Source: Planctomycetes bacterium MalM25 (GTDB lineage: Bacteria > Planctomycetota > Planctomycetia > Pirellulales > Lacipirellulaceae). Taken from it: a DNA stretch of 64,000 nucleotides. The stretch lies in NCBI GenBank assembly GCA_007745835.1, contig CP036424.1, forward strand, positions 3,149,968 through 3,213,967, given 5' to 3'. The translations under genes were made by a program, and so were the position numbers. Under the pieces are notes generated by a model. It did not search any database and was not told where the DNA came from. It saw only the letters and a list, made by a program, of their open reading frames with translations. Below, piece after piece: positions 8,117 through 45,849 of the stretch; the first letter of the stretch is position 1; the number at the start of each line of letters is the position of its first letter.

Positions 8117-8872
8117 ATGGCGACTCTCATTCTGCCTCATCTTCTCCTCGCCCCGAGGGCTCTCGCCTTGATCCCCATCAAGCCCCTGTTTCTTTCTTCT
8201 ATCGCCGGCACGACGCTCTTGCTCGCAACGGTGGGGACGGCATCAGAAAACAGCGTTGTGATCGAAGCGGAAGACTTTGCGACCTCGACGAGTTGGACAA
8301 CTGTGGTTGACTCCAGCGCCTCGGGCGGGGTGTACGCGACCGTCGCGGTGAACACGCTCTCGGATCGTACGCTCACGCCTGCCAGCTACAACGTCGAAAC
8401 GCCCGCGGCTGGCACGTACTACCTGTACGCCCGCGCCTACGCGCCCACGTACGAACCGCGGCGCAATCTCTTCATGCCGGACCAGAACGACAGCTTCTTC
8501 ATCTTCGATGGGTTCAACGGGGCGCCCGACCTGAGCCTGCCCGCTAACGATGAGCGGGTCAACGAATTCTTCCCCGACGACGTGATGGGCGCCGATCAGT
8601 GGGGCTGGCTCAACGCTTCGGCGGGCATCAGCGTCGAGAAGGGCGCCACGATCGACTCGCCCGAGTACAAGTACGTGTCAGCCGCCCCCGGCGTGGAGAC
8701 CCTCAACATCGCGGGGCGGGAAGATGACACGCGGATCGACGTGTTCGTCTTGAGTCTCGACGCCAGCTTGACGGCTTCCGAACTGAACGCCCTGGTCGGC
8801 CTAGTCCCCGAGCCGAGCTCGGCGGCCCTTCTGCTAACAAGCGTCCTCGGGATGTTCCGCCGAAAGCGTTAG
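8117..8872 (+). CDS. PEP-CTERM protein with a CBM-like domain, 251 aa
   Basis: After a hydrophobic leader (around FLSSIAGTTLLLATVGTAS) the mature part starts VVIEAEDFATSTSWTTVVDS, which resembles the start of family 6/35-like carbohydrate-binding modules (EAEDF, then SGGVYATV and YYLYARAY). The end is a PEP-CTERM signal: VPEPSSA, a hydrophobic segment, then RRKR. Sugar binding is inferred from the fold resemblance only. The start is uncertain: ATG 8117 gives a leader with a long N-terminal extension, while TTG 8168 gives a more normal signal peptide. It converges with the GH16 gene, with only 35 bp between the stops. Confidence 0.83.
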   Translation: MATLILPHLLLAPRALALIPIKPLFLSSIAGTTLLLATVGTASENSVVIEAEDFATSTSWTTVVDSSASGGVYATVAVNTLSDRTLTPASYNVETPAAGTYYLYARAYAPTYEPRRNLFMPDQNDSFFIFDGFNGAPDLSLPANDERVNEFFPDDVMGADQWGWLNASAGISVEKGATIDSPEYKYVSAAPGVETLNIAGREDDTRIDVFVLSLDASLTASELNALVGLVPEPSSAALLLTSVLGMFRRKR

Positions 8873-8907: not shown

Positions 8908-10491
8908 TCAAGCAAGGCGGCGCGAGCAGCCAACCATAAAACTGGCAGCCATCAGCACCACAATCGACGCCGGTTCGGGGACGGCCGCTGAGCTGACCGA
9001 CGCCGTCGCGCCGTAGTTGGCCGCCCACAGGTCGTAGCCCGCTTGGCCCTCGACGTGTGCGTCGCCGTCACGCCAGACGGCGTAGTCCGCGGCGTCGACC
9101 ACACCGTCGAAGTTGTAGTCGCCGGCCAAGACCTCTTCGAGGACGAGCGAGGCGGAGTCGATCCAGATGGCGCCGTTGTCGTTGTCGGTCTGGTCGAAGA
9201 GGAACGAGAGGCGTGCCTCCACGGCTCCGTCCGGGGCGATCGCCTCGAGCGTGTGGTCGAGCCAAGCGTTCTGAGCGGACGACCCGTCGTGGATGAGCTG
9301 GGAGACCTCGCCCAAGAAGTCGTTCGACCCGGAGGCGGCGCCGAAAGAGCTGAAGAACTCGATCCGCATCGTCACTTCGTTGTCCTTGCCGAAGAGCGTG
9401 TCCCACGAAGGGGTCTGCGAGCTCGTTCCGGCGCGCACCAGCACGCCCTCCGTGATCGCGACGCCCTGCGAAACGCCCGACGTGTTCGGACCGCCGGTGA
9501 ACTGTCCAAAGACCTTCAGGGCGTGCGTGCCGTCGTTCACGAGGCTGTCGCTGGCCGTGACGTTCCCGATCGTGTTGCCGAACACGTCCCACCCATCGAG
9601 CGACCCACCGTTGTCATCGAAGCCCGGGTTGATGAGCAGGTTCACGCCGTAATCGGGATCGGTCGATTGCTGCCAGACCCGCACGTAATCGACCAGCATG
9701 GTTTGGGGCCACACGGTGGTCGCGTCCGGATCGCCACCGAAGAACCCACCGACCGCCACGTTGAGGATGAGGTTCTTGGTCGTCTCGAAGATCGGCCGGT
9801 TGGGCCGCTCCTCAACGGTGAGATGCAGCACATCGTCGACGTAGTAGCGGATGGTGGTCTCGTCCCACTCGGCGGCGTAAGTGTGGTAGCCGGCGTGGAA
9901 GTCGACCGGCTGGCCTCCCTCGGTCGCGGTGTGCTCGTGGAAGGTGTACCGGTGGTCGTCGCAGCACGGGCCTGGGTTCGTTTGCCAGTGGTAGGCGCTG
10001 GAAACCAACGTCGGCTGGCTGCCACGGTTCTCCAGGATGTCGATCTCGCCCCCCTGAGGCCAAGGGACGTGGTTCGAGTTCAACCAGAAGGCGGGCCACA
10101 TCCCTTGCGAGGTCGGCAGATCGATCCGCGCTTCAAACCTTCCAACGCCGAACAGATCTCTCGACGTCACAAGGCCCGATTGATACGCCTTGCCTTCGCG
10201 CGGCGTGTCGATCGCGGTGATTTGCAGGGCGCCGTCCGCGACGGCGACTTGGTCTGGGTGGTAGTACTGCTTCTCGTCGTTGAAGCTGTCCCGGCGATCA
10301 AGGGCTTCCCACTTCTGCGTGTCGAGTGAGTTCCCGTCGAACTCGTCGTTCCAAGAGAGATCCCATCCGGGGAGGTGGGGGACCTGAGCCGAAGCCATCG
10401 GCATGCTGAAGAACGTCACCCCCAGCGCCAGCAACGTGCCGATCAGACAGGGGCGATAACGCGACGGAGTTAGGGAGTTCTGCCGTGACAA
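8908..10491 (-). CDS. Secreted GH16 beta-glucanase with dockerin-like repeat and PEP-CTERM anchor
   Basis: The 527-residue protein has a signal peptide (to about 35, ending MASAQ). A GH16 catalytic domain spans about 40-275 with the active-site motif EIDILE (Glu149 nucleophile, Asp151, Glu154 acid/base) preceded by GMWPAFWLN. GH16 enzymes cut beta-1,3 or mixed glucans, such as laminarin, or some galactans. A second beta-sandwich (about 285-450, GFDDNGGSLDGWDVFG onwards) resembles a carbohydrate-binding domain. Then comes a dockerin-type repeat (GDYNFDGVVDAADYAVWRD with partner half DLWAANYGA) and a PEP-CTERM end (VPEPASI, hydrophobic, SRR). The preferred substrate cannot be read from the sequence. 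Confidence 0.95.
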   Translation of the reverse strand: MSRQNSLTPSRYRPCLIGTLLALGVTFFSMPMASAQVPHLPGWDLSWNDEFDGNSLDTQKWEALDRRDSFNDEKQYYHPDQVAVADGALQITAIDTPREGKAYQSGLVTSRDLFGVGRFEARIDLPTSQGMWPAFWLNSNHVPWPQGGEIDILENRGSQPTLVSSAYHWQTNPGPCCDDHRYTFHEHTATEGGQPVDFHAGYHTYAAEWDETTIRYYVDDVLHLTVEERPNRPIFETTKNLILNVAVGGFFGGDPDATTVWPQTMLVDYVRVWQQSTDPDYGVNLLINPGFDDNGGSLDGWDVFGNTIGNVTASDSLVNDGTHALKVFGQFTGGPNTSGVSQGVAITEGVLVRAGTSSQTPSWDTLFGKDNEVTMRIEFFSSFGAASGSNDFLGEVSQLIHDGSSAQNAWLDHTLEAIAPDGAVEARLSFLFDQTDNDNGAIWIDSASLVLEEVLAGDYNFDGVVDAADYAVWRDGDAHVEGQAGYDLWAANYGATASVSSAAVPEPASIVVLMAASFMVGCSRRLA

Positions 10492-32604: not shown

Positions 32605-32679
32605 GCAAGCCCCGTTCGATGGCGACCCGGTTCGCGGCTGCGCTTGGCCCGATTGGTTGGGCCTGCTAGGACGGGGGGA

Positions 32680-33600
32680 ATGTCCACCGAACCCGCCCCC
32701 CGCCGCACGAACCTTGCGTTGCGCGTCTTGCGCCTCGTCGCGGTGGCTTATCTCTTGGTCCTGCTGCTGATGACGATGCTGGAGCGCTACCTCGTCTACC
32801 CGGCCCCGCCCCTGTCGCGTGGGGATTGGGCGCCCGCGGGGGACGACTACGAGGACGTCTGGATCGACGTGCCCGCGCTCAAGCCTTCCGGCGAACCGAC
32901 GCGCGTGCACGGCTGGTACTTCGATCACCCCGAGCCGCTCGACGCGGTCCTCTACTGCCACGGGAACGGCGAGGACATCACGTTCAATCTCGACCTGGCC
33001 CGACACCTGCGTGACGAGCTCGAAGCCGCCGTGCTGCTGTTCGACTACCGCGGCTACGGCAAGAGCGTCGGCAAGCCGCACGAGGCGGGGCTCGTCGCCG
33101 ACGGCCTGGCGGCGCAGCGCTGGCTTGCGGAGCGGACCGCGCGCACGCCCGACCAGACCGTGGTGATCGGCCGCTCCCTCGGGGGCGGGGTCGCCACGGC
33201 GATCGCCGCCGAGCAAGGCGCGCAGGCGCTCGTCTTGCAGAGCACCTTCTCGCGGATGACCGACGCCGCCGCGTCGCACTACCCCTGGCTGCCGGTCCGC
33301 TGGATCATGCAGAACCGCTACGACTCGCTCGCGCGCCTCGCCGCTTACGACGGCCCGGTCCTCATCAGCCACGGCGACTGGGACGAGGTCATCCCCTACG
33401 AGCAGGGGGTGCGGCTCTTTGACACAGCGCCGGGAAAGAAGCGATTCGTAGAATTGCCCGGCCGATCCCACAATCAGCCACAACCGGGCAGCTACTACCC
33501 GGTGCTCCAAGAGTTCCTTGCGGAGAGCCGAATCCCGCTAGCTGATACCGCGTTGAACGGCGAAGCGACGCCCTCGCCAGCGGCCAACCCCAACGAATAA
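32680..33600 (+). CDS. Alpha/beta hydrolase with N-terminal membrane anchor
   Basis: The 306-residue product has an N-terminal hydrophobic helix (LRVLRLVAVAYLLVLLLMTM). Then comes an alpha/beta-hydrolase domain of the YqkD/BEM46 type: YCHGNGEDI, LLFDYRGYGKSVGKP, the nucleophile elbow GRSLGGG (Ser), a later Asp in GDWDEVIP and the His in GRSHNQPQPG. Anchoring to the inner membrane and esterase activity are inferred. It is followed 187 bases later by a paralogue without the anchor. The start is ATG 32680 with GGGGGGA just upstream. Confidence 0.9.
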   Translation: MSTEPAPRRTNLALRVLRLVAVAYLLVLLLMTMLERYLVYPAPPLSRGDWAPAGDDYEDVWIDVPALKPSGEPTRVHGWYFDHPEPLDAVLYCHGNGEDITFNLDLARHLRDELEAAVLLFDYRGYGKSVGKPHEAGLVADGLAAQRWLAERTARTPDQTVVIGRSLGGGVATAIAAEQGAQALVLQSTFSRMTDAAASHYPWLPVRWIMQNRYDSLARLAAYDGPVLISHGDWDEVIPYEQGVRLFDTAPGKKRFVELPGRSHNQPQPGSYYPVLQEFLAESRIPLADTALNGEATPSPAANPNE

Positions 33601-33787
33601 CGAGCGTTTGAATCCTGCCTTGCGCACGCTCCCTAACGGGGGCGCCCCGCCCGCAGCCACGCCCTACCGTGAGCCCCGGCACATTCGGGCTCGCCGAACG
33701 GCGAACGATCCCCCGCCCTGCCCCGTAGCAGCAGGATCTCCCGCCGGAACCGGGAGGGGAACGTCGCCCAAGAGAAGACACTTACCC

Positions 33788-34591
33788 GTGATTATCAGCA
33801 CCCTCGAGCGGACGCTCGTGTACCCGGCGCCCCCCTTCGGGCGGGGCAACTGGAAGACGACTTGGATCGATCGCGAAGACGTCCGCTTCGCCTCGCGCGG
33901 TCCGGGGCGTGAATCGGTCACGCTGCACGGTTGGTACTGTCCGCACCCGGATCCGAAGCACGTCGTCCTCTACTCGCACGGTCAGAGCGAGCACGTCGCG
34001 AGCCTGGTCAACGTGGCGGCCCGCTTGCAGGAGTCGCTCGACGCCAGCGTCCTGCTGTACGACTACCGCGGCTACGGCAAGAGCTCCGGCTGGCCGACCG
34101 AGGCGGGCTGCCTCGCCGACGGCCTCGCCGCCCAGCAGTGGCTCGCCGAGCGGACCGGCCTGCTGCCCGAGCAGATCGTCCTCGCGGGGCGTTCGCTCGG
34201 CGGGGCGGTGAGCGTGGCCGTCACCGCCGAACGGGGCGCCAAGGCGCTCGTCTTGGAAAGCACCTTCGGCCGGCTGACCGACGTCGCCGCGTACAAGTTC
34301 CCCTGGGCTCCGGTCCGCCGCGTGATGAATGAGCGCTACGACTCGATCGAGCGCATCGGCCGCTACGAGGGCCCGCTGCTGCAGCTGCACGGCACGCGCG
34401 ATCGCATCGTCCGCGCCAAGTTCGCCCGCGACCTGTTCCGGGCGAGCCCCAGCCGGCAGAAGAAATTCCTCGTCCACCGCGGAGGCCAACACCACGACGC
34501 CCCGCCGCTCGGCTTCTATTCCAAGATGGCCGAGTTCCTCGCCGAGCACACCGAGCCGACCCCGGGTCGGTCACGGAGGGTGGCTGGGTAG
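33788..34591 (+). CDS. Alpha/beta hydrolase, paralogue without anchor
   Basis: The product is 267 residues if it starts at GTG 33788 (VIISTLERTLVYPAPPFGRG). It closely parallels its upstream neighbour: LVYPAPP, YSHGQSEH, LLYDYRGYGKSSGWP, GRSLGGAV (Ser nucleophile), TRDRIV (Asp region) and GGQHHDAPPLGFYS with the His. It lacks the hydrophobic anchor of the first copy. A much longer frame begins at 33608, but its extra residues are Pro/Arg-rich and have no counterpart. This is a tandem duplication with loss or change of localisation. A nested palindromic element follows it. Confidence 0.85.
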   Translation: MIISTLERTLVYPAPPFGRGNWKTTWIDREDVRFASRGPGRESVTLHGWYCPHPDPKHVVLYSHGQSEHVASLVNVAARLQESLDASVLLYDYRGYGKSSGWPTEAGCLADGLAAQQWLAERTGLLPEQIVLAGRSLGGAVSVAVTAERGAKALVLESTFGRLTDVAAYKFPWAPVRRVMNERYDSIERIGRYEGPLLQLHGTRDRIVRAKFARDLFRASPSRQKKFLVHRGGQHHDAPPLGFYSKMAEFLAEHTEPTPGRSRRVAG

Positions 34592-34857: not shown

Positions 34858-35955
34858 GTGCCTCGCGAAACGATCCTCACCGCCGACGACTCCGGGGACG
34901 AGCCCCTCGGGTCGGGCCCTGCGCCGGAATCCGCCGGGCCTCCCCCTCCGAAGGCGGAGACCACGACGGCCGAAGACATCGCGCTGCGTCCCAAGCGGAT
35001 CCGCGACATCATCGGCCAGCGCGACGTCTGCGAGCGGATCGAGATCGCCGTCTCGGCGGCCGCGCGCCGCAAGGAGCCGCTCGGGCACGTGCTGCTCGAC
35101 GGGCCCCCGGGGCTCGGCAAGACGACCTTCGCGACCTGCATCCCGCGCGAGCTCGACGTCAGCCTCCAGATCGCCAGCGGCGCGGCGCTCGCCGCGCCCA
35201 AGGACCTGCTCCCCTACCTCACCAACGCGGAGGAGGGCTCCGTCCTCTTCATCGACGAGATCCACCGGCTGCCCAAGGCGGTCGAGGAGTTCATGTACCC
35301 GGCGATGGAGGACTTCCGGGTCGACATCACGCTCGGCGAGGGGGTCAACGCGCGCACCGTCAACATGAAGCTCCGCCCGATGACGATCATCGGCGCCACC
35401 ACCCGCAGCGGCATGCTCTCCGCGCCGCTCCGCGACCGCTTCCCCGTCCGCGAGCACCTCGACTTCTACACGATCGGCGAGCTCACGAAGATCATTACGA
35501 TCAACGCGGCGAAGCTCGGCCTGCCGATCGACGCGGACGCCGCCGGCAAGGTCGCGCTCGCCAGCCGCGGCACGCCGCGCATCGCGAACAACCACCTGCG
35601 CTGGGTCCGCGACTACGCCCAAAGCCGCGCCGACGGCGAGGCGACCCTCCCCGTAACCGACGACGCCCTCACGATGCGCGGCGTCGACCAGAAGGGGCTC
35701 GACTCGCAGGACCGCCGCTACCTGGAGACGATCGAGCGCGTCTTCCACGGCGGCCCGGCGGGCGTCGAGGCGATCGCCCACACGATGAACCTGCCGCCCG
35801 ACACGCTGACCGACGAGGTCGAGCCGTTCCTGCTGCGCAGTGAGTTCGTCGTCCGCACCCCAAGAGGTCGCAAGCTCACACCCAAGGCATACGAGCACCT
35901 CGGCAAAGCGCCCCCGGCCGAGCTGGAAGAAGAGGCGGGGCCGTCGCTTTTTTGA
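34858..35955 (+). CDS. ruvB: Holliday junction branch migration DNA helicase RuvB
   Basis: The 365-residue AAA+ motor has the Walker A motif DGPPGLGKTT (81-90), Walker B VLFIDEIHRL, the sensor-1 region GATTRSGML and the arginine-finger stretch SAPLRDRFPV. The C-terminal winged helix ends with FVVRTPRGRKLTPKAYEHLG. An AGGAGG site stands before GTG 34858. The first 40 residues are Asp/Pro-rich and longer than in most RuvB. It drives branch migration with RuvA, whose gene is 3.7 kb upstream. Palindromic hairpins flank this gene on both sides. Confidence 0.97.
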   Translation: MPRETILTADDSGDEPLGSGPAPESAGPPPPKAETTTAEDIALRPKRIRDIIGQRDVCERIEIAVSAAARRKEPLGHVLLDGPPGLGKTTFATCIPRELDVSLQIASGAALAAPKDLLPYLTNAEEGSVLFIDEIHRLPKAVEEFMYPAMEDFRVDITLGEGVNARTVNMKLRPMTIIGATTRSGMLSAPLRDRFPVREHLDFYTIGELTKIITINAAKLGLPIDADAAGKVALASRGTPRIANNHLRWVRDYAQSRADGEATLPVTDDALTMRGVDQKGLDSQDRRYLETIERVFHGGPAGVEAIAHTMNLPPDTLTDEVEPFLLRSEFVVRTPRGRKLTPKAYEHLGKAPPAELEEEAGPSLF

Positions 35956-36032: not shown

Positions 36033-36153
36033 TGCCCCAAGAGAAGGCTCCGACGTTTGATTTCTTTGTATTGCCTTCCGCGTGACATCCGATCTACGGT
36101 ACGGCCCTATCTGGAGCGGCGCCTCCTTCAATCCACCTGGACCGGGTCTCGGG

Positions 36154-38058
36154 ATGTCCTTCAAGACGAACTGCCTTTCAGCACTTCTCACGGCCGCTTG
36201 CGCCACCTCCCTTGCAGGAGGGCCCATCCCCGCGGTCGATCTGCCGTCGGTGGTCCCGGATTCGGTCCGCGACCGGGTCGCTCGCGAGTTGGCCTCCACA
36301 CGCGACACGCTTAGTTGGGCAGTCCATCCGTTCCGCGGCGAGTTCCACGGGCTGGGCAACCCTGCCGCAGGGTCCAGCCGCGCGCACGACCTCTCGGCGA
36401 ACGGCCGCGTCGTCGTTGGCGCCGACCGCGGCGACTTGGGCGGCAGCCAAGCGTTCGTCTGGTCGCCCTGGACGGGGCGTGCTCATTACGACATGGGCCC
36501 CGGCGACACGGTGGCGACCGCGATCTCCGCCGACGGGGTCAATGTCGCGGGCAATGCGGGGAACAACGCTTTCCGCTGGTCGCTCGCTGGCGGTGAATCG
36601 TTGCCACCGGTTCTTGGCAGTCAACGCGACGCGGCGGCGATCTCAGGAAACGGCGGCGTGGTGGTTGGGTCAATCACCCCCGACCCGCCGGAGTTCTATC
36701 CTTGGATCGACACACCGATCTTCCTCAATTCGGACGACGCAGCGACTTTCGGCGGGATCGAGAGCACAGGCGTTGTTCAAGTTGCGCAAGGGAAAAACGC
36801 CTATCGCTGGTCGAAGACGACTAGTAGTCAACAGCTGCCGCCTCAGCCGACCTATTTCAATCATACCGCCGCTGATGTTTCAGCAGATGGAGAGACCGTG
36901 CTCGGCAACGGAGGCCGGCTCTACTACCTTTCCTTTCCGGGCTCTTTGACACAAACCGTTGAGCCCATCCTCTGGCGCAACAACGAGCCATCGCTTCTGG
37001 GTGGGCTGTACGACTTGGATAGCTTAGTCGCCGACGACTTATCAGGCTCGGGCTCGAGTGACTGGGTTGTCTACCCGATCACAAACAGCGTGACCCAATC
37101 AACGACAGCCACGGCGATCTCAGCCGACGGGACCACCGTCGTTGGCAACAACCTTTTCTCTCGATTCTCATTCTTCACCGACGCCTTTTTTCCCACAAAG
37201 AACGAAGCCGTGCTCTGGCGTGAAGGGACCGGTTGGATCTCACTCGACTCCCGCGTGCGACTTGCGGATGATCTGAATCGGTTCTTACCCGGCTCTTCGG
37301 CTACCGATGTCTCCGGCGATGGCTCGATCGTGATCGGCCGGTCACAGGAGTATGTAACCAGTCAAGTTATTGCCAATATCGGTGCCGTCTCTTTTGGCAA
37401 CCTTGTCGAAACCCCCTTCCTCTGGGACGAGCAGCGCGGCATGCGTGACCTCGCCGAGGTCTTTCAGTTCGACTACGGCCTCGACCTGGGCGACTGGAGA
37501 CTCGGCGAAGCGACCGCCATCAGCGACGACGGCTCGACGATCATCGGCAACGGGACCAACCCCGCGGGTGAGCAAGAGGCGTGGCGGGCCGTGCTCAATC
37601 GTGAGACGCCCGACGGCGACCTCGACTTCGACGGCGACGTCGACCAGCACGACTACGCCGCGCTGAAGGCGAACCTCGGGCTCAGTTCGGAATCCTCGGC
37701 CGTCTACTACGCCGACGGCGACCTGAACGCGGACGGCCTCGTCGACGCGGCGGACTCGATGGCGATGCTCGGCCTGTACGAACACCGCGACCGGGGCGAC
37801 TTCAACGCCGACGGCTTGGTCGATCTCATCGACTACACCGTGTGGCGGGACCACTTCGGTGAGATCGCCCGCGGCGTGGCCGACGGCAACGGCGACGGCC
37901 GCGTCGATCACGCCGACCTCGCCGTCTGGCGAGCGAACTTCGGCGACGCGGTCGCAACGCTGGTCGCGCACCAGACGCCCGAACCGACCTCGCTCGTCGG
38001 GGGAGTGCTGGGCCTGCTGATCATGGCGGCGATCGGCCGGCGGGACAGCGGGCGCTGA
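36154..38058 (+). CDS. HAF-repeat, dockerin-containing PEP-CTERM protein (paralogue 1)
   Basis: The 634-residue product starts MSFKTNCLSALLTAACATSL, a signal peptide. The middle has several HAF-type repeats, with the refrain AISADGTTVVGNN and FRWSLAGGESLPP. These extracellular beta repeats are known from autotransporter-like proteins. Just before the anchor come three EF-hand-like dockerin halves: GDLNADGLVDAADS, GDFNADGLVDLIDYTVW and NGDGRVDHADLAVWRANFG. It ends with TPEPTSL, a hydrophobic stretch and GRRDSGR, a PEP-CTERM signal. The later paralogue at 41.3 kb shares FLWDE-RGMR and DYGLDL-WRLGE-TAISDDG. Role unknown. Confidence 0.88.
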   Translation: MSFKTNCLSALLTAACATSLAGGPIPAVDLPSVVPDSVRDRVARELASTRDTLSWAVHPFRGEFHGLGNPAAGSSRAHDLSANGRVVVGADRGDLGGSQAFVWSPWTGRAHYDMGPGDTVATAISADGVNVAGNAGNNAFRWSLAGGESLPPVLGSQRDAAAISGNGGVVVGSITPDPPEFYPWIDTPIFLNSDDAATFGGIESTGVVQVAQGKNAYRWSKTTSSQQLPPQPTYFNHTAADVSADGETVLGNGGRLYYLSFPGSLTQTVEPILWRNNEPSLLGGLYDLDSLVADDLSGSGSSDWVVYPITNSVTQSTTATAISADGTTVVGNNLFSRFSFFTDAFFPTKNEAVLWREGTGWISLDSRVRLADDLNRFLPGSSATDVSGDGSIVIGRSQEYVTSQVIANIGAVSFGNLVETPFLWDEQRGMRDLAEVFQFDYGLDLGDWRLGEATAISDDGSTIIGNGTNPAGEQEAWRAVLNRETPDGDLDFDGDVDQHDYAALKANLGLSSESSAVYYADGDLNADGLVDAADSMAMLGLYEHRDRGDFNADGLVDLIDYTVWRDHFGEIARGVADGNGDGRVDHADLAVWRANFGDAVATLVAHQTPEPTSLVGGVLGLLIMAAIGRRDSGR

Positions 38059-38079
38059 GGGGCTCCTTCGCCCTTTTTT
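38059..38079 (+). terminator. Weak hairpin plus T tract after the first HAF gene
   Basis: A GGGGC stem with GCCC around a short loop is followed by TTTTTT directly after the stop codon. The stem is only four to five pairs, so confidence is low. Confidence 0.4.
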
Positions 38080-38178
38080 CACGGAAAACCGTGGCCCTCC
38101 GGGGTGGCCTCCCGGTAGGATCACCGGCGGAGCAGAGGTTGTCGCAGCCCGTCTCGTCTCACGACCGAGGATCGCGCT

Positions 38179-41100
38179 ATGCGCCGCCGACTCACCTTCA
38201 CCCTGCTGCTGTTTGCGCTTCACTCGTCGCACTCCCTGGCTCAGACCATCGACTGGACGGGCGGGGGGCCGACCGACCAGTGGGACGATAAGCCCAACTG
38301 GACCGCCAACAACATCCCCGACGCGGCCGGCGAGACGGCGCAGTTCAACGTCGCCGGGGGCTTCCCGGTCGAGCTGCCCGGCGACTTCACGATCGACGAC
38401 CTGATCTCGCTGAGCGGCCTGCCCCAGCTGAGGCCGTCGGCGGGCGTGAACCCGACACTCACCGTGAGCGACGACCTGCTCGCCACCGGCGGCGGCTTCT
38501 ACCTGAGCACGACAAACGATGAGAAGTTCACCGTCGAGGTGAACGACGCGCTGCGCATCGACGGCGGCGGCTCCTTCACGGCCGATACCAGCGGAGGAGC
38601 TGGCGGGTTGGTGTCGATCCTCATCGACGGCCTCCGCTTGGGAGACATCGGGTCGGGCTCGGGCGATCTGAATCTCATCGGCCCCAACTCGACGCTCGAC
38701 CAAACCGGCCTCACGACCATCAACCTCGGCCAGGATGGGCCGGCTCAGTTCACGCTGAGCGATGGAGCGCGGGCGACGTTCGCCGCGCCGATCGGCATGG
38801 CGAACCTTGCCAGCGGGGCGACCAGCGCGAACGTGCTGGTCGAGTCCGGGTCGCGGCTCAACCTGAACTCGCTGCAGCTGACCACCCTCGGCTTCTTCGC
38901 AGGCGTGAGCGCCGACCTGACCGTGACCGGGTCGTCGTCGGTCGCGGACCTGTCCGGCTTGCTGACGATCGGCGGCTCTTCGTCGGCGACCGCAACGGTC
39001 AACGTGTCGAACAACGGCCGCCTCGACGTGGGCGGGGCGACGACCGTCAACACCAACGGCATCCTGACCATCGACAGCGGCGGCTCCTTCATCGCTCGGA
39101 GCGGGCTCGACGCCACGACCGCCGGCGTGGTCGATGTGCAGAACGGCACGCTGCTGGTGGAGAACGGCTCTTTCCGCCCCCTCGGCGCGAGCAGCGCGTA
39201 CGTCCTCGATGGCGACGCCGCCCCCGCCGACACCGCCAAGGTGACCGTCGGCGCGGGGGCGACCTTCTCGCCGGGTGGGACCACCAGGATCGGGAACGCG
39301 GCCGGGGGCACGCTCGAAGCGGCCGCCGGCGGCGAGATCGACCTGGGCTTTGTCGAGGTCGGCGGCCAAGCGGGCTCGGCAGGCGCGTTGATCGCCACCG
39401 GATCGGAGACCGTGTTCAACACGTTCGCGGTCGAAGTCGGTCGCCAGGGGTCCGGCTCGTTGCTCGTCGAGGAGGGCGGCAAGTTCGAGTACCTCCGGAT
39501 TGAGGTCGCCACCGCCGCCGGCGGCGACGGCGCGATCACGGTCACCGGGCCGGGATCGCGGCTGGTCCGCGACCCGAACGGCAACTCCGCGACACTCATC
39601 CTCGGCTATCGGGACGACGGTAGCCTGGAGGTCCTCGACCAGGGACGGGTCGAATCCAGCACGATGCAAGTCGGCCGAATCGGCTCGACGGGCGACGTGA
39701 ATGTCCTGGTCGATGGCGTGGGCAGCGTGCTAGCCGTCGGCTCACTATCCAGCAGCGAAGTCAACTCCGCGACGGTGACGGCCTCGAACGGCGGATTCAT
39801 CGACGTGGCGGGCGCCTCGGAAATCGGCGACGGGGTCGTCGTCTCCGTCACCGGCGGCGGGTCCTTCGAAACCGGCTCGTTCGTCGACGAGGGGGGGCGG
39901 TTCCAACTCCTCAACGGCGACCTGACGGTGACCAGCGCGTCTCGCACGTTGCTGGTGGAACCGGTTGGCCCGACGGTCGACGGCGTCCGGATCGAGCTTC
40001 ACCCGTCCTTCTCCACCGCCTCGCCGACTCAGCTCACCTCGTCGCACGCCATCGACATGGCGGGCGACATCATCGTGCTGCCGGGGGCTTTTTTCGACAT
40101 CGCTGGCGGCACGCTCTCGGGAGAAGACCTGTCCCTCGGCGCCGGCGCCAGCCTCCGGGTGCGGTCCTCGGCGAATGTGACAACGCATGGTTCCTTCAAC
40201 ATGGCGCTCGGTTCCGCCGCCGAGTTCGATGAGGACGCCACCCTCGGAGACGCGACAGCCGTCAACGGCGTCACGATCGCCGGTGAGATCGACACCGGCG
40301 CCAACACGCTGACGCTTGAAGACGCCAACGATGTCGTGTTCGACTCCGGCGCGCTCGTCGCGTTCCCCGCGAGCACGTCCCTCTCGGGCGAGGTGGCGGC
40401 CGCCAACGGCGCGACGATCGACTTCGGCGCCAACTTCACAGGCCACGGCCAGATCACTTCGCCCGACGATCCGATAAAACCCGTCATCAACAACGGCCAC
40501 CTAGCCGGCGACTCGATCGCGCGGCCGATCACGCTCACCGGCTACGTGAAGGGCGTCGGCACGTGCGACAACTGTGTGATCACCGGCACCGACGCCCCCG
40601 GCTTCTCGCCCGCCACCGTGATCCGCGGCAGCGTCGCCTACCGGGGCACGCTGGAGATCGAGATCGGCGGGACCGGCTCGGGCGACTTCGACCGGCTCGA
40701 GCACCTGCTCGGCGCCGGGGTCATCGACCTGGGCGGAGAGCTCTCGGTTGAATTGATCGATGGCTACACGCCGAGCGCCGGTGATGAGTTCCTGTTCATG
40801 ACTTCAAACGGGGGGGTCTTCAATACGTTCGACACCATCGACCTGCCCGAAGGGGCCGGCGGGCTGTCGTGGGACCTCCAATACGGCGAGACCATCGTCG
40901 CCCTCGTGGTCGAGGGCGTGGCGGGCGATTACAACTACGACGGCCTCGTCGATGCCGCCGACTACACGGTGTGGCGCGACACGCTCGGCCAGGCGGGCGC
41001 GGGCCTCGCCGCCGACGGCGACAACAACGGAGTCGTCGAGCAGGCCGATTACGCCATCTGGCAAGCGAACTACGGCGCCACCGCCGCCTCGCTAGCCACC

Positions 41101-41196
41101 ACCGTGCCCGAGCCGAGCGGGGCGATCCTGGCCCTGGTGGGGGGCCTAGGCCTGTGGCGGAGCCGCACGCATCGCCTTCTCAAAAATATCTCTTGA
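38179..41196 (+). CDS. Giant beta-rich autotransporter-like PEP-CTERM protein, 1005 aa
   Basis: After a signal peptide (MRRRLTFTLLLFALHSSHSLA) the product opens IDWTGGGPTDQWDDKPNW, the start of many planctomycete autotransporter-associated proteins. The body is made of irregular 15-25-residue beta units rich in Gly, Ser, Thr and Asn (VNVSNNGRLDVGGATTVN, LTIDSGGSF), consistent with a right-handed beta-helix. A YRGTLEIEIGGTGSGDFDRL segment is a PEP-CTERM associated C-terminal domain. Dockerin-like repeats (GDYNYDGLVDAADYTVWRD; DNNGVVEQADYAIWQANYG) and VPEPSGA plus a hydrophobic stretch end it. Surface-exposed structural or adhesive role is inferred. Confidence 0.88.
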   Translation: MRRRLTFTLLLFALHSSHSLAQTIDWTGGGPTDQWDDKPNWTANNIPDAAGETAQFNVAGGFPVELPGDFTIDDLISLSGLPQLRPSAGVNPTLTVSDDLLATGGGFYLSTTNDEKFTVEVNDALRIDGGGSFTADTSGGAGGLVSILIDGLRLGDIGSGSGDLNLIGPNSTLDQTGLTTINLGQDGPAQFTLSDGARATFAAPIGMANLASGATSANVLVESGSRLNLNSLQLTTLGFFAGVSADLTVTGSSSVADLSGLLTIGGSSSATATVNVSNNGRLDVGGATTVNTNGILTIDSGGSFIARSGLDATTAGVVDVQNGTLLVENGSFRPLGASSAYVLDGDAAPADTAKVTVGAGATFSPGGTTRIGNAAGGTLEAAAGGEIDLGFVEVGGQAGSAGALIATGSETVFNTFAVEVGRQGSGSLLVEEGGKFEYLRIEVATAAGGDGAITVTGPGSRLVRDPNGNSATLILGYRDDGSLEVLDQGRVESSTMQVGRIGSTGDVNVLVDGVGSVLAVGSLSSSEVNSATVTASNGGFIDVAGASEIGDGVVVSVTGGGSFETGSFVDEGGRFQLLNGDLTVTSASRTLLVEPVGPTVDGVRIELHPSFSTASPTQLTSSHAIDMAGDIIVLPGAFFDIAGGTLSGEDLSLGAGASLRVRSSANVTTHGSFNMALGSAAEFDEDATLGDATAVNGVTIAGEIDTGANTLTLEDANDVVFDSGALVAFPASTSLSGEVAAANGATIDFGANFTGHGQITSPDDPIKPVINNGHLAGDSIARPITLTGYVKGVGTCDNCVITGTDAPGFSPATVIRGSVAYRGTLEIEIGGTGSGDFDRLEHLLGAGVIDLGGELSVELIDGYTPSAGDEFLFMTSNGGVFNTFDTIDLPEGAGGLSWDLQYGETIVALVVEGVAGDYNYDGLVDAADYTVWRDTLGQAGAGLAADGDNNGVVEQADYAIWQANYGATAASLATTVPEPSGAILALVGGLGLWRSRTHRLLKNIS

Positions 41197-41197
41197 T

Positions 41198-41214
41198 CCG
41201 GAGGGGCCCTCCGG
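41198..41214. repeat. 17-bp perfect palindrome
   Basis: CCGGAGGGGCCCTCCGG overlaps the spacer of a possible TTGATC/TACAAC promoter for the HAF gene at 41264. It could be an operator or part of a weak terminator of the preceding gene. No T tract. Confidence 0.5.
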
Positions 41215-41263
41215 TACAACATCGGGGGAGCAAGCAGGGGCATCTGTTTTGCGGAGGCGTATC

Positions 41264-43384
41264 GTGTTCTCTCTTCTTTCCGCCGCGCGGGTTCGCGTGG
41301 CGATGGCTGCCTGCCTCGTCGTCTCGGCGGCAGGCTCTCTGACCCAATCGGCCCGAGCCTTCGAGCTCCCTTGGTGGATCGACTCGATCGAGGTCACCTC
41401 GCCCAGCACGCCGCTAGGCATCGGGGCGGTCACCCTCAACGGCACGTGGATCGACACCGGCGCGCCCGACGCGATCGGGCACTCGGTCCGCGACGGGGCG
41501 TTGCACCTGAGCGTCTCGGCGCCGGGGCTGAACGTCCCCACCGGCGACGCGCTCACCCCCTGGTCGCTGACCGAAGAGTTCGGTCCGCTCGATCCCTTCG
41601 CCGGCCCGGGAGGCGTCAACGAGATCTTCGGGTCGGTCTGGTCGGTCGATCCACGCGACCGGAGCGTGCGCGAGCGGGTCTCCGGGCCCGACTTCCTCGG
41701 CTGGATCATCCCCCCGCCCCGCGGTTCGTTCGAGGGGCTCGGCACGGGGCAGGAGTACGTCTCCGCGGCTTACGACGTGTCGGCCGACGGCCGCGTCGTC
41801 TCGGGCGCGAACCACCTGGCGCCGAACGTGAACGGCTTGATCACGAGCGAAGCCTTCGCCTGGACCCCCGAAACGGGGCGCACCACGATCGGCCTCCTGC
41901 CCGGCGGGATCCCCGGCGGCAGTCGCGCGCTGGGCGTCAGCGCCGACGGCAACTACCTGGCGGGCGTCTCCACGAGTGGCGCCGAGCCGAGCGTCCCCCA
42001 GGAGGCCTTCCGCTGGTCGCTGGGCGGCGGCATGGAAGGGCTCGGCGTGATCAACGACTTCTCCTCGACCAGCGAGGCCCGTGCCATCTCGCGCAACGGC
42101 GCCGTCGTCGTCGGTGTCGACGACTTCTTCCCGCCGCTCGGCGCGCCGGGCGTGTTCGACTTCCGCCGCGCGTTCCGTTACACGGACGAAGCGGGGATGC
42201 AGGACCTCGGCACGCTGCCCCAGTACGGCGAGCGTTCGACTTCCGAGGCGGTGGATGTCTCCGCGAACGGCCGGGTCGTCGTCGGCACGGCGTTCCGCGA
42301 CGCCCAACCGGACGATCCCTTCTTCCCGATCGACCTGGCCCAGCCCTTCCGCTGGGTACCCCTCGACGGCATGCAAGGCCTGGGGAACCTGCCGCGGTTC
42401 TTCCCCGCCATCTTCCCGACTCCGCAGCAGATGACCCTCGCCAACGCGGTCTCCGCCGACGGCGAGACGGTGGTCGGCGTCGATCGCGTGGTGACGCCGG
42501 CGTTCGTCGATAGCCTCGATCCCTACTTCCAAGAGAGCGCCGTCCTCTGGACACGCGAGGCGGGATGGGTCGATCTCGGCCAGCTCCGCCTCGTCCCCGG
42601 TCCCGAGCAAGTCGCCGCCGAGGCGGTGGATGTCTCCGGCGAGGGAGAGATCGTCGTCGGCCAGGCGCTGGTCGTCGCGACCGACGCGGCCAATGACGAC
42701 TACCTCGACAGCGAGCCCGACGCTTTCGGGCGCGTGAAGGTCCCCTTCATCTGGGATGAGGAGCGTGGCATGCGCCCGCTCGCCCGGGTGCTCGCGGGCG
42801 ACTTCGGCCTCGACCTGGAGGGCTGGCGGCTCGGCGAAGTGACCGCCATCAGCGACGACGGCACGACCGTCGTCGGCACGGGCCGCAACCCGAACGGGCT
42901 GCAAGAGGCTTGGCGCGCGGTCATGCACCGCAACTCGCGCCCCGGCGACGCCGACTTCGACGGCGACGTCGACCGCCACGACCACGCCACGCTGATGGAG
43001 CACCTCGGCCTGTCGAGCGAATCGCACGAGCTCTACTACGCCGACGGCGATTTCGACGCCGACGGCGCCGTCGGCGAGGGCGACCTCGCGCTGCTGCTCG
43101 CCAACTACGACGGCCGTCACCTCGGCGACTTCAACGCCGACGGCGTGGTCGACGCCGCCGACTACACCGTCTGGCGTGACCACCAGGGCCTGGAGACGGG
43201 CGTCGCCGATAGCAACGGCGACGGACGCGCCTCGGGCGATGACCTCGCCGCCTGGCGAGCGAACTACGGCCGAGAGCTCAACGCCACGGGCCTCGCGCTG
43301 GCCGTGCCCGAGCCGGCTGGCCTGCTGCTCGTGGTGCTTGGCTTGATGTCCCAAGCCGGACGCGGCTCTCGACGAAATCGCTAA
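41264..43384 (+). CDS. HAF-repeat, dockerin-containing PEP-CTERM protein (paralogue 2)
   Basis: GGAGG at 41253-41257 precedes GTG 41264, which starts MFSLLSAARVRVAMAACLVV, a signal peptide; the TTG at 41249 overlaps the ribosome-binding site. The 706-residue body repeats the HAF pattern (SADGRVVSG, GLGVINDFSSTSEARAISRN, VSADGETVVGVDR). The C-terminal part matches the first paralogue: FIWDEERGMRPLARV and DFGLDLEGWRLGEVTAISDD. Three dockerin-like halves are followed by VPEPAGL, a hydrophobic stretch and RGSRRNR. It has diverged more at its N-terminus than in the last third. Role unknown. Confidence 0.88.
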   Translation: MFSLLSAARVRVAMAACLVVSAAGSLTQSARAFELPWWIDSIEVTSPSTPLGIGAVTLNGTWIDTGAPDAIGHSVRDGALHLSVSAPGLNVPTGDALTPWSLTEEFGPLDPFAGPGGVNEIFGSVWSVDPRDRSVRERVSGPDFLGWIIPPPRGSFEGLGTGQEYVSAAYDVSADGRVVSGANHLAPNVNGLITSEAFAWTPETGRTTIGLLPGGIPGGSRALGVSADGNYLAGVSTSGAEPSVPQEAFRWSLGGGMEGLGVINDFSSTSEARAISRNGAVVVGVDDFFPPLGAPGVFDFRRAFRYTDEAGMQDLGTLPQYGERSTSEAVDVSANGRVVVGTAFRDAQPDDPFFPIDLAQPFRWVPLDGMQGLGNLPRFFPAIFPTPQQMTLANAVSADGETVVGVDRVVTPAFVDSLDPYFQESAVLWTREAGWVDLGQLRLVPGPEQVAAEAVDVSGEGEIVVGQALVVATDAANDDYLDSEPDAFGRVKVPFIWDEERGMRPLARVLAGDFGLDLEGWRLGEVTAISDDGTTVVGTGRNPNGLQEAWRAVMHRNSRPGDADFDGDVDRHDHATLMEHLGLSSESHELYYADGDFDADGAVGEGDLALLLANYDGRHLGDFNADGVVDAADYTVWRDHQGLETGVADSNGDGRASGDDLAAWRANYGRELNATGLALAVPEPAGLLLVVLGLMSQAGRGSRRNR

Positions 43385-43411
43385 TCCGCGGCTTTGGCTT
43401 CGCTCCCAATC

Positions 43412-43475
43412 CGGGAGGGCGAGGCTCCCGCCGAGCCGCGATCGCGTTCGGCTCAGCAGGAGCTTCGCCCTCCCG
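43412..43475. repeat. Palindromic element with 27-base arms
   Basis: The arms 43412-43438 and 43449-43475 (CGGGAGGGCGAGGCTCCC type) are complementary with four mismatches, several of them G:U in RNA. A ten-base loop separates them. It lies just after the second HAF gene and is followed by GTTTTCTC, so it may act as a terminator. Confidence 0.8.
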
Positions 43476-43496
43476 TTTTCTCTAGGGCGCCGAATG

Positions 43497-43525
43497 CTGT
43501 CCGCTTTTTCCGTGGCGACTATACT
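43497..43525 (+). promoter_or_regulatory. Possible promoter of the GH30 gene
   Basis: CTGTCC at 43497-43502 and TATACT at 43520-43525 are 17 bases apart, about 100 bases upstream of the GH30 start. The -35 is one base from the TTGTCC seen before the SHD1 gene. Weak evidence. Confidence 0.35.
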
Positions 43526-43623
43526 GAGTAGTCACCCGCCGATCCGACCTACTCGCCTGCTGCGGAGGCACTTCGGGCCCGCGAAGCAACCTCGGCCGGA
43601 CCTCAACTTTTCCCTCCGGCTCG

Positions 43624-45849
43624 ATGCTGAACACGCGAAACTGGCCGGTCCTCTTGGCCGCCGCGATGCTCCTCTCCGCCGCGGCGCCGGCGCCGGGGGT
43701 CAATGTCTGGATCACTTCGGGCGACCAATCGCGGCTCTTCGCCCAGCAACCGGATATCGTCTTTGGCCCCGGCGGCGGGAACACGATCACGATCGACCCA
43801 ACCGATCGCTATCAAACGATGGAGGGCTACGGCGCGGCGGTGACCAACTCGTCGGCCTCCCTGCTGCAGAACCAGCTTAGCGTCGGCCAGCGCGAGCGGT
43901 TGATGGATGATCTCTTCTCGCCCACGGAGGGGGCGGGCTTGAACTACCTGCGGCTGGCGATCGGGGCGTCCGACTTCACCGCCGACGGCTTCTACACCTA
44001 CAACGACCTGCCGGCCGGTCAGACCGACGGGCCGCAGAGCAACTTCTCCCTCGATCCGGACCGGGCGACCATCCTGCCCAGCCTGGACGACGCCCGCGCG
44101 GTCAACCCGGCGATCCGGCTCATGGGCTCTCCCTGGAGCGCCCCCGCCTGGATGAAGACGAGCGGGTCGCTGATCGGCGGCGGCCTGGCGCCGCAATGGC
44201 GGGGCTCCTACGCGACCTACCTGCGCAAGTTCGCCGAGGCCTACGCGGCCGAGGGGCACCCGATCGACTCGCTGACCCTCCAGAACGAGCCGCTCTTCAC
44301 GCCGGGGGACTACCCCGGCATGGCGATGTCCGCCGTGGAGCAGATCGACCTGGTGAAGAACTACGTCGGCCCCACGTTCGCCGCCTCGAGGCTCGACACC
44401 AAGCTCATCGCGTACGATCACAACTGGGACAACACGGCCTACCCGATCGAGGTGCTGAACGACGCGGGCGCACGCCAGCACCTGGCCGGGACCGCGTTCC
44501 ACGGCTACGCCGGCGACGTCTCCGCCCAGTCCACGGTGCGCGACGCGCACCCCGACAAGGCGATCTACTTCACCGAGATCACCGGCGGCGACTTCGCGCC
44601 CGATTTCGAGAACAACTTGGTGTGGTACGCGCGGAACCTGCTGATCGGCGGCGCGCGCAACTGGGGCTCAACGGTCATGCTCTGGAACCTCGCGCTCGAC
44701 GAGAACAGCGGCCCGCACCAGGGGGGCTGCAACGACTGCCGGGGCGTCGTCACGATCGACTCGGCGAGCGGCGCCATCACGCACAACGAAGAGTTCTACT
44801 CCCTCGCCCACGCCAGCCGGTTCGTCCAACCGGGCGCGACCCGCATCGGATCGAACTCGCTGGACAACCTGCTGGAGACGGTCGCTTTCGAGAACCCCGA
44901 CGGCTCGCGCGCGCTCCTCGTGCTCAACCCGACCGGCTCGACGCAACCGCTACGGGTCGTCGACGGCGGCGATCGCTTCGTCCACGACGTCCCCGCCCGC
45001 AGCCTCGCCACGTTCACCTGGACCGAGGACGACCGGGCCGACTTCGATAACGGCGGGTTCGAATCGGGCGGTTTCCACACCACCGGCGGATCGCTCGACG
45101 GCTGGCAGGCGTGGGGCGTGACGGGCGACAACGTCGCGGTGACCGACGCGGACGCCTTCCAGAGCGACAACGCGCTCCGCCTCACCGAGCCCGATGGCTT
45201 CGGCGGCTTCTCGGGCGTCTCGCAGGGGATCAGCGTCGAGGGGGGCGATCGCTTGGTCGCCGACGCCAGCGTGCTGCTGCCGCAAACCGGCTCCCTCGCG
45301 GGCACGGGCAACCAACTCTTCATGAAGGTCGAGTACTACAGCGTTTACGGCGGCGGTTTCCAATCGCCCGAGTACCTCGGCCAGTCGGAGATCGTCGCCG
45401 GGGGGGGCCAAACGCCAACGGGCGTCTGGCTGCCCCACCAGATCGACAGCGTCGCGCCGGCGGGCGCCGCCGAGGCGAGGCTCGTCTTCACCTACGCGAG
45501 GAACCAGAACGACGTGGGGGCGGTACTGATCGACAACGTCGGATTCCGCCTCGTCGAGCCGCTCGCGGGCGACTTCAACGCCGACGGGGTCGTCAATGCG
45601 GCCGACTACACCGTGTGGCGGGACGGTTTGGGCTCCACGCACACCGCCGGGGATTACGACCTCTGGCACGCAAACTACGGGGCGACTGCTCCGCCCCTCG
45701 CGGCGACGATCCCCGAGCCGACCGCCGTGTGGCTTCTGCTCGCGTTATCGATCGCTCCGCGTCTTAAGGGCTGCTCAAGCCAGCGGCCGGCTCACCAGAC
45801 GAGCTTCGTCGCGTCGAAGACGGGGCCCTCGACGCACGTCCGCTTGTAG
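43624..45849 (+). CDS. Secreted GH30-type glycoside hydrolase with dockerin repeat and PEP-CTERM
   Basis: The 741-residue protein has a signal peptide (MLNTRNWPVLLAAAMLLSAA) and a GH30-like catalytic barrel with MEGYGAAVTNSSASLL, NYLRLAIGASDF, MGSPWSAPAWMKT, LTLQNEPLF (acid/base Glu222) and YFTEITGG (nucleophile Glu318). GH30 covers glucosylceramidases, beta-1,6-glucanases and xylanases; the substrate is not clear. A beta-sandwich (GGSLDGWQAWGVTGDNV) resembles that of the GH16 protein. Dockerin-like halves and IPEPTAV plus hydrophobic stretch then appear, but the frame continues 23 residues past the usual end into the convergent pyrK gene. Confidence 0.92.
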   Translation: MLNTRNWPVLLAAAMLLSAAAPAPGVNVWITSGDQSRLFAQQPDIVFGPGGGNTITIDPTDRYQTMEGYGAAVTNSSASLLQNQLSVGQRERLMDDLFSPTEGAGLNYLRLAIGASDFTADGFYTYNDLPAGQTDGPQSNFSLDPDRATILPSLDDARAVNPAIRLMGSPWSAPAWMKTSGSLIGGGLAPQWRGSYATYLRKFAEAYAAEGHPIDSLTLQNEPLFTPGDYPGMAMSAVEQIDLVKNYVGPTFAASRLDTKLIAYDHNWDNTAYPIEVLNDAGARQHLAGTAFHGYAGDVSAQSTVRDAHPDKAIYFTEITGGDFAPDFENNLVWYARNLLIGGARNWGSTVMLWNLALDENSGPHQGGCNDCRGVVTIDSASGAITHNEEFYSLAHASRFVQPGATRIGSNSLDNLLETVAFENPDGSRALLVLNPTGSTQPLRVVDGGDRFVHDVPARSLATFTWTEDDRADFDNGGFESGGFHTTGGSLDGWQAWGVTGDNVAVTDADAFQSDNALRLTEPDGFGGFSGVSQGISVEGGDRLVADASVLLPQTGSLAGTGNQLFMKVEYYSVYGGGFQSPEYLGQSEIVAGGGQTPTGVWLPHQIDSVAPAGAAEARLVFTYARNQNDVGAVLIDNVGFRLVEPLAGDFNADGVVNAADYTVWRDGLGSTHTAGDYDLWHANYGATAPPLAATIPEPTAVWLLLALSIAPRLKGCSSQRPAHQTSFVASKTGPSTHVRL

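Follow-up and report, generated by a model that had tools for sequence, protein, structure and literature searches.

Four neighbouring genes of Planctomycetes bacterium MalM25 (family Lacipirellulaceae) raise the question of why secreted proteins of different kinds should carry two C-terminal addresses, a dockerin and, directly behind it, a PEP-CTERM tail, and of what such dockerins bind. The genes, four open reading frames (ORFs) on the same strand, occupy positions 36082-45849 of the 64,000-nucleotide window, i.e., the whole stretch of DNA analysed here, C1:3149968-3213967 of the one 4,723,830-base contig (C1) representing the 4.72-Mb genome. The double address is genome-wide and not specific to the four-gene region, and 110 of the 119 full dockerins of the genome have exactly one near-invariant half. 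As read from the sequences, this pattern is the signature of dockerins with a single binding mode facing one common, lineage-specific receptor missed by annotation. A genome-wide secretion and display system based on such dockerins and one common receptor is the explanation favoured here, with modest confidence.

One conserved half in most dockerins

A half of a dockerin module was assigned to class A when it had at least four of the residues A10, A11, T/S14, R17, and D18. Of 119 full dockerins (118 distinct), 80 show the order AB, 30 the order BA, two are AA, and seven have no A half, so the near-invariant helix AADYTVWRD stands in the first place in 80 modules and in the second in 30. Two of the seven modules without an A half are A-like by eye, namely the second module of P1, the first of the four window genes (LIDYTVWRD), and one in locus L245 (MIDYTIWRD). 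Were the two halves independent, 22 AA modules would be expected (82 x 32 / 119), against the 2 observed. In leave-one-out counts, positions 10, 11, 14, 17, and 18 are conserved in 96, 87, 93, 96, and 100% of A halves and in 17, 38, 17, 34, and 22% of B halves, respectively, the entropy of half B at these positions being 2.7-3.3 bits. Halves A and B alike retain the core positions 1, 12, and 16, and half A has well-kept calcium ligands.

Half B provides an internal clock, because both halves lie in one gene, and the residues of half A appear to be held by selection. The codon identity of half A, compared with the expectation from codon usage, is near it at V15 (0.35/0.41), near or a little above it at A10 (0.44/0.38), A11 (0.46/0.38), T14 (0.48/0.40), and R17 (0.30/0.27), and exceeds it at V8 (0.65 vs 0.41) and D18 (0.78 vs 0.63). 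Positions 17 and 18 of dockerins are presumably contacts of the cohesin. Cohesin specificity is known to be tied to the residue pair at positions 10 and 11 (PMC8063739), and binding through one face only, with the key residues at positions 11 and 15 in the numbering used there, has been shown (PMC5429695). The conservation strongly suggests that the dockerins are recognised by some common partner, and thereby strengthens the suggestion of a first-pass annotation of the window that an unseen surface partner exists.

Dockerin proteins of the genome

The Pfam dockerin model finds 32 places in the genome at E<=1e-3, while a lineage profile (A2), built from 32 modules of the same genome, three of them from the window, finds at least 149 at E<=3.3e-5 (150 of 277 candidates scored). 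PF00404 is matched at E<=1e-4 by 13 of the 96 dockerin proteins scanned. Dockerins occur in at least 139 frames of the stretches examined, and at least 112 of these frames have a PEP-CTERM tail; by their C-termini, 115 frames were labelled PEP-CTERM (three are incomplete in the examined stretch, which leaves 112), 18 have a long tail, 5 are incomplete, and 1 is of another kind. A PEP or PEP-like motif is also present in 6 of the 18 long-tail frames. The linker between dockerin and PEP motif has a median of 10 residues, and measures 6-16 residues in 83 of the 95 proteins whose last dockerin is full and which have a PEP motif. As judged from the 96 shortest frames of the 139, and from 25 of their 49 Pfam families, the cargo is mixed, with most families met once by Pfam and NCBIfam likewise; it includes glycosidases of families 10, 16, 25, 26, and 113, as well as trypsin, matrixin, glucose dehydrogenase, MauG, cyclophilin, and an endonuclease.

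The first-pass annotation had taken the four window genes for a 10-kb island. Four dockerin genes within 10 kb are found near 2.04 Mb as well, so the genome has two such places, and 139 genes placed at random give at least one in 32% of 2000 simulations, by which the region as a special unit was rejected. Dockerin genes do cluster overall, with 17 windows holding three or more vs 4.9 expected.

The PEP-CTERM tail is lacking in twelve frames whose C-terminus is complete; their mostly acidic tails measure 97-130 residues, except for one of 325:

PEP-less dockerin loci: L053, L054, L057, L060, L063, L066, L200, L205, L206, L222, L223, L227

Each of their 13 full dockerins has exactly one A half, in the order BA in seven and AB in six. 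An LE.R.LL-like motif occurs in 8 of the 12 frames, which are all those with the N-terminus in reach (four by pattern, four by eye), and PF07595 (Planctomycete extracellular) gave a match below its cut-off in one of the four PEP-less proteins scanned. From its sequence, the acidic tail may be a second C-terminal address. Runs like ALLLL or LLLIxE occur in many of the twelve proteins. The protein of L063 (C1:4687574 onward) is porphyranase-like (PF18206, PF18040), with a LEPRQLL start, a BA dockerin, and an acidic tail.

Elsewhere in the genome, L242 (C1:3683900-3688200) holds a 501-residue frame with three tandem dockerin modules followed by PEP-CTERM, and the distant loci L068 and L069 encode large proteins whose dockerin modules are letter-for-letter identical, which points to a recent duplication.

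Codes of other lineages

The comparison took in sixty dockerin stretches, picked by Pfam rank in seven genomes of as many other genera, together with 30 added loci from two cohesin-bearing genomes and two longer stretches. These genomes show two codes, AADY/FTVWRD and GxDFLxWQR. The first, which is that of MalM25, is found in G078, G263, G135, and G093, where exactly one half matches (three of the five positions) in 26 of 38 modules. The second is present in G121, G248, G251, G260, and G261 (five genomes, four other genera); here exactly one half has at least three of G10, F13, L14, Q17, and R18 in 47 of 48 modules, in both orders, and the higher-scoring half has G10 in 98%, L14 in 100%, Q17 in 100%, and R18 in 83%. 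In Aeoliella straminimaris, the modules of nine loci are full or almost so and have [LIM]ADYxxWRN. Among relatives of the HAF-repeat proteins of the window, position 10 is L in G204 and G066, and A in G263 and G093. The cohesin-bearing G093 shares its code with its congener G263, which has no cohesin match at E<=1e-3, and the cohesin-bearing G261 with its congener G260 (best E 0.63); because the codes agree within each genus, the cohesins of G093 and G261 do not set the code. By the same measure that gave 32 Pfam dockerin matches in MalM25, G261 has 116 (150 of 379 candidates scored).

These observations bear on the possibility that the dockerin has no partner at all and is a mere calcium-folded spacer, or a folding checkpoint, before the PEP-CTERM tail. 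The short linker to the PEP motif, the well-kept calcium ligands of half A, and the failure to find a cohesin in the genome would all fit such a role. A spacer, however, would not predict that positions 10, 11, 14, 17, and 18 are conserved in one half only and in either place, that the same face recurs in all 13 full dockerins of the PEP-less proteins, or that the face differs between lineages, and this explanation is considered unlikely.

Search for a cohesin

Cohesins were sought in the whole genome with Pfam and a lineage profile (A1) made from 12 planctomycete cohesin rows. The best PF00963 score is 13.1 bits vs a cut-off of 24.1, and the place with this weak match was rejected as a cohesin, as it lies in a DUF11/CARDB protein; profile A1 has no match at E<=1 in the genome (G000), and no scaffoldin with cohesins was detected by either method. 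In the class, a cohesin is found at E<=1e-3 in 34 of 248 genomes and a dockerin in 128 of 248 (at most 25 candidates scored per genome). Within the family, profile A1 finds matches at E<=1e-3 in 4 of 28 genomes, none of which belongs to the four of the own genus (best E 0.66, in G156). Cohesins occur in a large cadherin-like protein of G066 and a large beta-helix protein of G093, the latter with a weak dockerin of its own. These profile searches give no support to attachment by way of a known cohesin.

That a canonical cohesin exists and was missed, whether in the remainder of a genome estimated to be 95% complete or as a truncated domain, is improbable. Its presence in 34 genomes of the class and 4 of the family speaks for this possibility; against it stand the assembly in one contig, the lack of matches at E<=1e-3 in all four genomes of the genus, and the single dockerin code shared by cohesin-bearing genomes and their match-less congeners. 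The partner predicted by the conservation would instead be common to the genome, specific to the lineage, and not a recognisable cohesin.

Exosortase and PEP-CTERM tails

The genome has a single exosortase (C1:359684-360688, ca. 0.36 Mb; PF09721 151.6 bits, TIGR02602 121 vs a cut-off of 105.55), which sits in an exopolysaccharide locus. Its neighbours are an EpsI-like gene (28.5 vs 42.8 bits), a polysaccharide-export-like gene (below the cut-offs), and a tyrosine-autokinase gene (TIGR01007 122.3 vs 108.05). It does not qualify as the XrtD (VPLPA) subtype, scoring 147.9 bits vs 400 with TIGR04152. An exosortase was found in all 28 family genomes examined. The first-pass annotation had proposed that the double address serves attachment or sorting to a surface structure, a proposal to which the exosortase found in the genome lends support; a cohesin, as known partner of dockerins, was not detected by the profile searches.

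PEP-CTERM places number at least 150 in the genome, and in at least 55 cases a dockerin of the present set precedes the tail. Since up to 95 of the 150 listed places have no such dockerin (at least one of them, 3011165, is misfiled), the dockerin is not needed for PEP-CTERM. This bears on a further explanation, in which the A face would be read by the exosortase or other export machinery and not by a surface receptor. The position of the dockerin directly before PEP-CTERM and the exosortase in 28 of 28 family genomes are in line with it; yet the twelve PEP-less proteins bear the same face and most of the listed PEP-CTERM places lack this dockerin, so reading by the export machinery has little to recommend it in comparison with a common receptor.

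Two small dockerin-less PEP-CTERM proteins, of a kind that is numerous genome-wide, are also encoded in the window (345-1034, - strand, and 8117-8872, + strand). Small proteins of this kind were considered, from their sequences, as candidates for the receptor.

The four-gene region of the window

The proteins of the region, P1-P4, and a glycoside hydrolase family 16 (GH16) protein encoded near 9 kb have the following features:

36082..38058, + strand: P1, HAF-like secreted protein with tandem dockerins and PEP-CTERM; start probably at 36154 (by eye)
37615..37782, + strand: P1, first dockerin-like module, divergent
37795..37944, + strand: P1, second dockerin, with the recognition half LIDYTVWRD in first place
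37978..38055, + strand: P1, PEP-CTERM tail with TPEP, hydrophobic stretch, and RR (Pfam 11.9 bits, below cut-off)
38179..41196, + strand: P2, 1005 residues, with T5SS/PEP-CTERM-associated repeats, dockerin, and PEP-CTERM
40924..41076, + strand: P2, dockerin of order AB, AADYTVWRD
41107..41193, + strand: P2, PEP-CTERM tail with VPEP (sequence, by eye)
41249..43384, + strand: P3, HAF-repeat paralogue of P1 with tandem dockerins and PEP-CTERM
42944..43111, + strand: P3, first dockerin-like module
43124..43270, + strand: P3, second dockerin of order AB, AADYTVWRD
43307..43381, + strand: P3, PEP-CTERM tail with VPEP (Pfam 14.8 bits, below cut-off)
43624..45849, + strand: P4, glycoside hydrolase family 30 (GH30) enzyme (TIM barrel and beta-sandwich; PF02055 2.5e-32) with half-dockerin and PEP-CTERM
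45568..45681, + strand: P4, half-dockerin with a single calcium loop and AADYTVWRD; the second loop has been lost, the second helix is still there
45712..45780, + strand: P4, PEP-CTERM tail with IPEP; end approximate (sequence, by eye)
8908..10491, - strand: GH16 protein (PF00722 5.4e-22) with half-dockerin and PEP-CTERM, layout as in the four genes
9055..9123, - strand: GH16 protein, half-dockerin, first loop and helix
8917..8985, - strand: GH16 protein, PEP-CTERM (Pfam 18.7 bits, below cut-off)

P1-P4 have N-terminal signal peptides visible by eye and share one C-terminal order, in which the dockerin is followed by 10-12 residues, [VTI]PEP, a hydrophobic stretch, and Arg. All four thus end as the first-pass annotation stated, with the qualification that P4 has only a half-dockerin, and the same layout predicted for the GH16 protein is borne out, its second calcium loop being gone and the helix of that loop retained. 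The PEP motif, hydrophobic stretch, and basic end were found by sequence in all five proteins. The Pfam PEP-CTERM model scores P1, P3, and the GH16 protein below its cut-off and reports no match for P2 or P4. With PF00404 (cut-off 22.9), P1 (45.6 bits) and P3 (39.7) are above the cut-off, and P2 (16.4) and P4 (12.8) below. The second dockerin of P1 matches three of the five face positions, which places it in the class without an A half at the strict threshold.

P1 and P3, regarded in the first-pass annotation as a duplicated HAF pair flanking P2, are indeed paralogues (42% identity over 623 aligned columns), but the cut-off of the HAF model is passed by P3 only (P1, 16.6 vs 22.65). Relatives of P3 with 59-64% identity are found in the family genomes G263, G093, G204, and G066, and two adjacent weaker ones (43-49%) in G117; none was found in a scan of named genomes. 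P2, with its 1005 residues, is not the giant it had been called, and its repeats match TIGR04393 (3.7e-12). The best NCBIfam model of P4 is endo-1,6-beta-glucanase, below its cut-off (343.5 bits vs 700), and its nearest solved relative is a glucosylceramidase entry.

Predicted structure of the dockerin

The C-terminus of P2 was modelled by AlphaFold2 with 41 sequences from the window and named genomes. The dockerin is modelled with a pLDDT (predicted local distance difference test) score above 90 and most of the PEP tail with one below 50. The module is predicted to have the dockerin fold, with two calcium loops, each with a helix; P4 and the GH16 protein have one calcium loop only. Foldseek gave one match to the model at E<=0.001, the solved dockerin 2y3n_B (Z 10.0, root-mean-square deviation 1.6 over 57 residues), and the rows listed are all dockerin entries except one calcium sensor (E 4.4). 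Other dockerin entries have Z 3.3-6.8, so that only 2y3n_B is above Z 8. The lineage dockerin profile likewise retrieves solved dockerins.

Proposed mechanism

According to the favoured explanation, functionally diverse proteins would be exported, most of the dockerin-bearing ones ending in a dockerin, ca. 10 residues, and a PEP-CTERM tail, which the single exosortase would cut to release them to the cell surface or the exopolysaccharide. Half A would present its fixed helix face to one common receptor, with half B only completing the fold, and could occupy the first or the second place because the module is pseudo-symmetric. The receptor, an unrelated protein or a cohesin-fold domain that has diverged beyond the reach of present profiles, would differ between lineages, and the face would change along with it across the dockerins sampled per genome. 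Mutual pairing of the dockerins, the A face binding the B half of another molecule to give homotypic matrix chains, is the least probable explanation: a single A half in 110 of 119 dockerins, more than 100 encoded copies, and the lack of another known partner agree with it, but half B is too variable (2.7-3.3 bits) to be tolerable as partner of a fixed A face.

Several points weigh against a common receptor read by one face. Paralogues share ancestry, so the Fisher value for the exclusivity of the A half (p 3e-19) overstates independence, and the conservation figures concern the very positions that define class A; defining the class by position 18 alone, like leave-one-out, gives the same picture and is not fully independent. 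Some cassettes may have spread recently, because codon identity in the A half mostly exceeds that expected from usage. In the genomes sharing the code of MalM25 (G078, G263, G135, and G093), 6 of 38 modules have two A halves and 6 of 38 none, and the five positions behind the count of 47 of 48 for the other code were chosen by eye. The scan of named genomes gave 74 full modules, 48 of which, many of them from other lineages, match the MalM25 code in neither order. Some HAF relatives depart from the genus code: position 10 is I in G156, which belongs to the own genus, and P1 itself has LI at 10/11. Up to 95 of the 150 listed PEP-CTERM places do without such a dockerin, profile searches may miss a divergent cohesin-fold receptor, and no partner of the dockerins was found.

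A bolder and more tentative proposal is that Lacipirellulaceae practise docking on the scale of a cellulosome without cohesins: much of the secretome would be dockerin-tagged for a single receptor, unrelated or unrecognised, whose code would have switched between genera together with that of the dockerin face (AADYTVWRD; GxDFLxWQR; [LIM]ADYxxWRN in Aeoliella).

Comparison with known dockerin systems

The dockerins described here resemble those of types I and II from cellulosomes (PF00404; 2y3n, 1ohz) in the two loop-helix calcium motifs, the predicted fold, and the pseudo-symmetry, and in the recognition positions 10/11 (PMC8063739). They differ in that no cohesin or scaffoldin was detected, that the conserved face lies in one half, in either position, and that the cargo is mixed (glycosidases, proteases, dehydrogenases, cyclophilin) and not mainly composed of enzymes acting on plant polysaccharides. 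With the dockerins of Ruminococcus flavefaciens (PMC5429695, PMC2930009) they share asymmetric halves, one binding face, truncated forms, and a genome-scale set (222-223 dockerins there); unlike in that species, where cohesins are known, none was found here, and the same face stands in the first or the second half. The PEP tail and the EpsH-type exosortase in an exopolysaccharide locus are as in the PEP-CTERM/exosortase system (PMC1569441; TIGR02602); what differs here is the dockerin directly before the tail on more than 100 proteins. In the planctosome of Nemodlikiaceae, non-cellulosomal dockerins of planctomycetes have been proposed to act in surface assembly, with cohesin-bearing anchor and adaptor proteins (PMC6461901), whereas here cohesins were not found. 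Anaerobic methane-oxidising archaea likewise have many dockerins together with exosortase-family genes, but their cohesins are abundant (80 vs 149 dockerin entries in one table column; PMC5244752).

The work on these archaea (PMC5244752), which describes the function of dockerins outside cellulosomes as largely unknown, was the only one found to join dockerin and exosortase, and none was found linking dockerin and PEP-CTERM, with or without Planctomycetes, in a search with most subscription journals outside its scope. Among the literature matches listed on five Lacipirellulaceae genera, the word dockerin is not used. What is new here is the single conserved half per dockerin, in either place.

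A cultivable family is at hand in which one genome encodes more than 100 proteins with a single conserved docking face, with codes distinct between genera, and mostly with no cohesin. A search for the missing partner could use the shared face as a clean bait and the genus codes as a clean specificity control, and the AB and BA arrangements offer a natural test of the idea that the pseudo-symmetry of dockerins makes either half usable. Docking could explain how these planctomycetes hold mixed enzymes on their surface or in a matrix.

Genes upstream of the region

Directly upstream of P1, a RuvB-like Holliday junction helicase (PF05496 3.4e-61) is encoded at 34858-35955. It is preceded at 32644-34591 by two tandem alpha/beta-hydrolase-like ORFs, the first matching PF12146 and the second recognised by eye.

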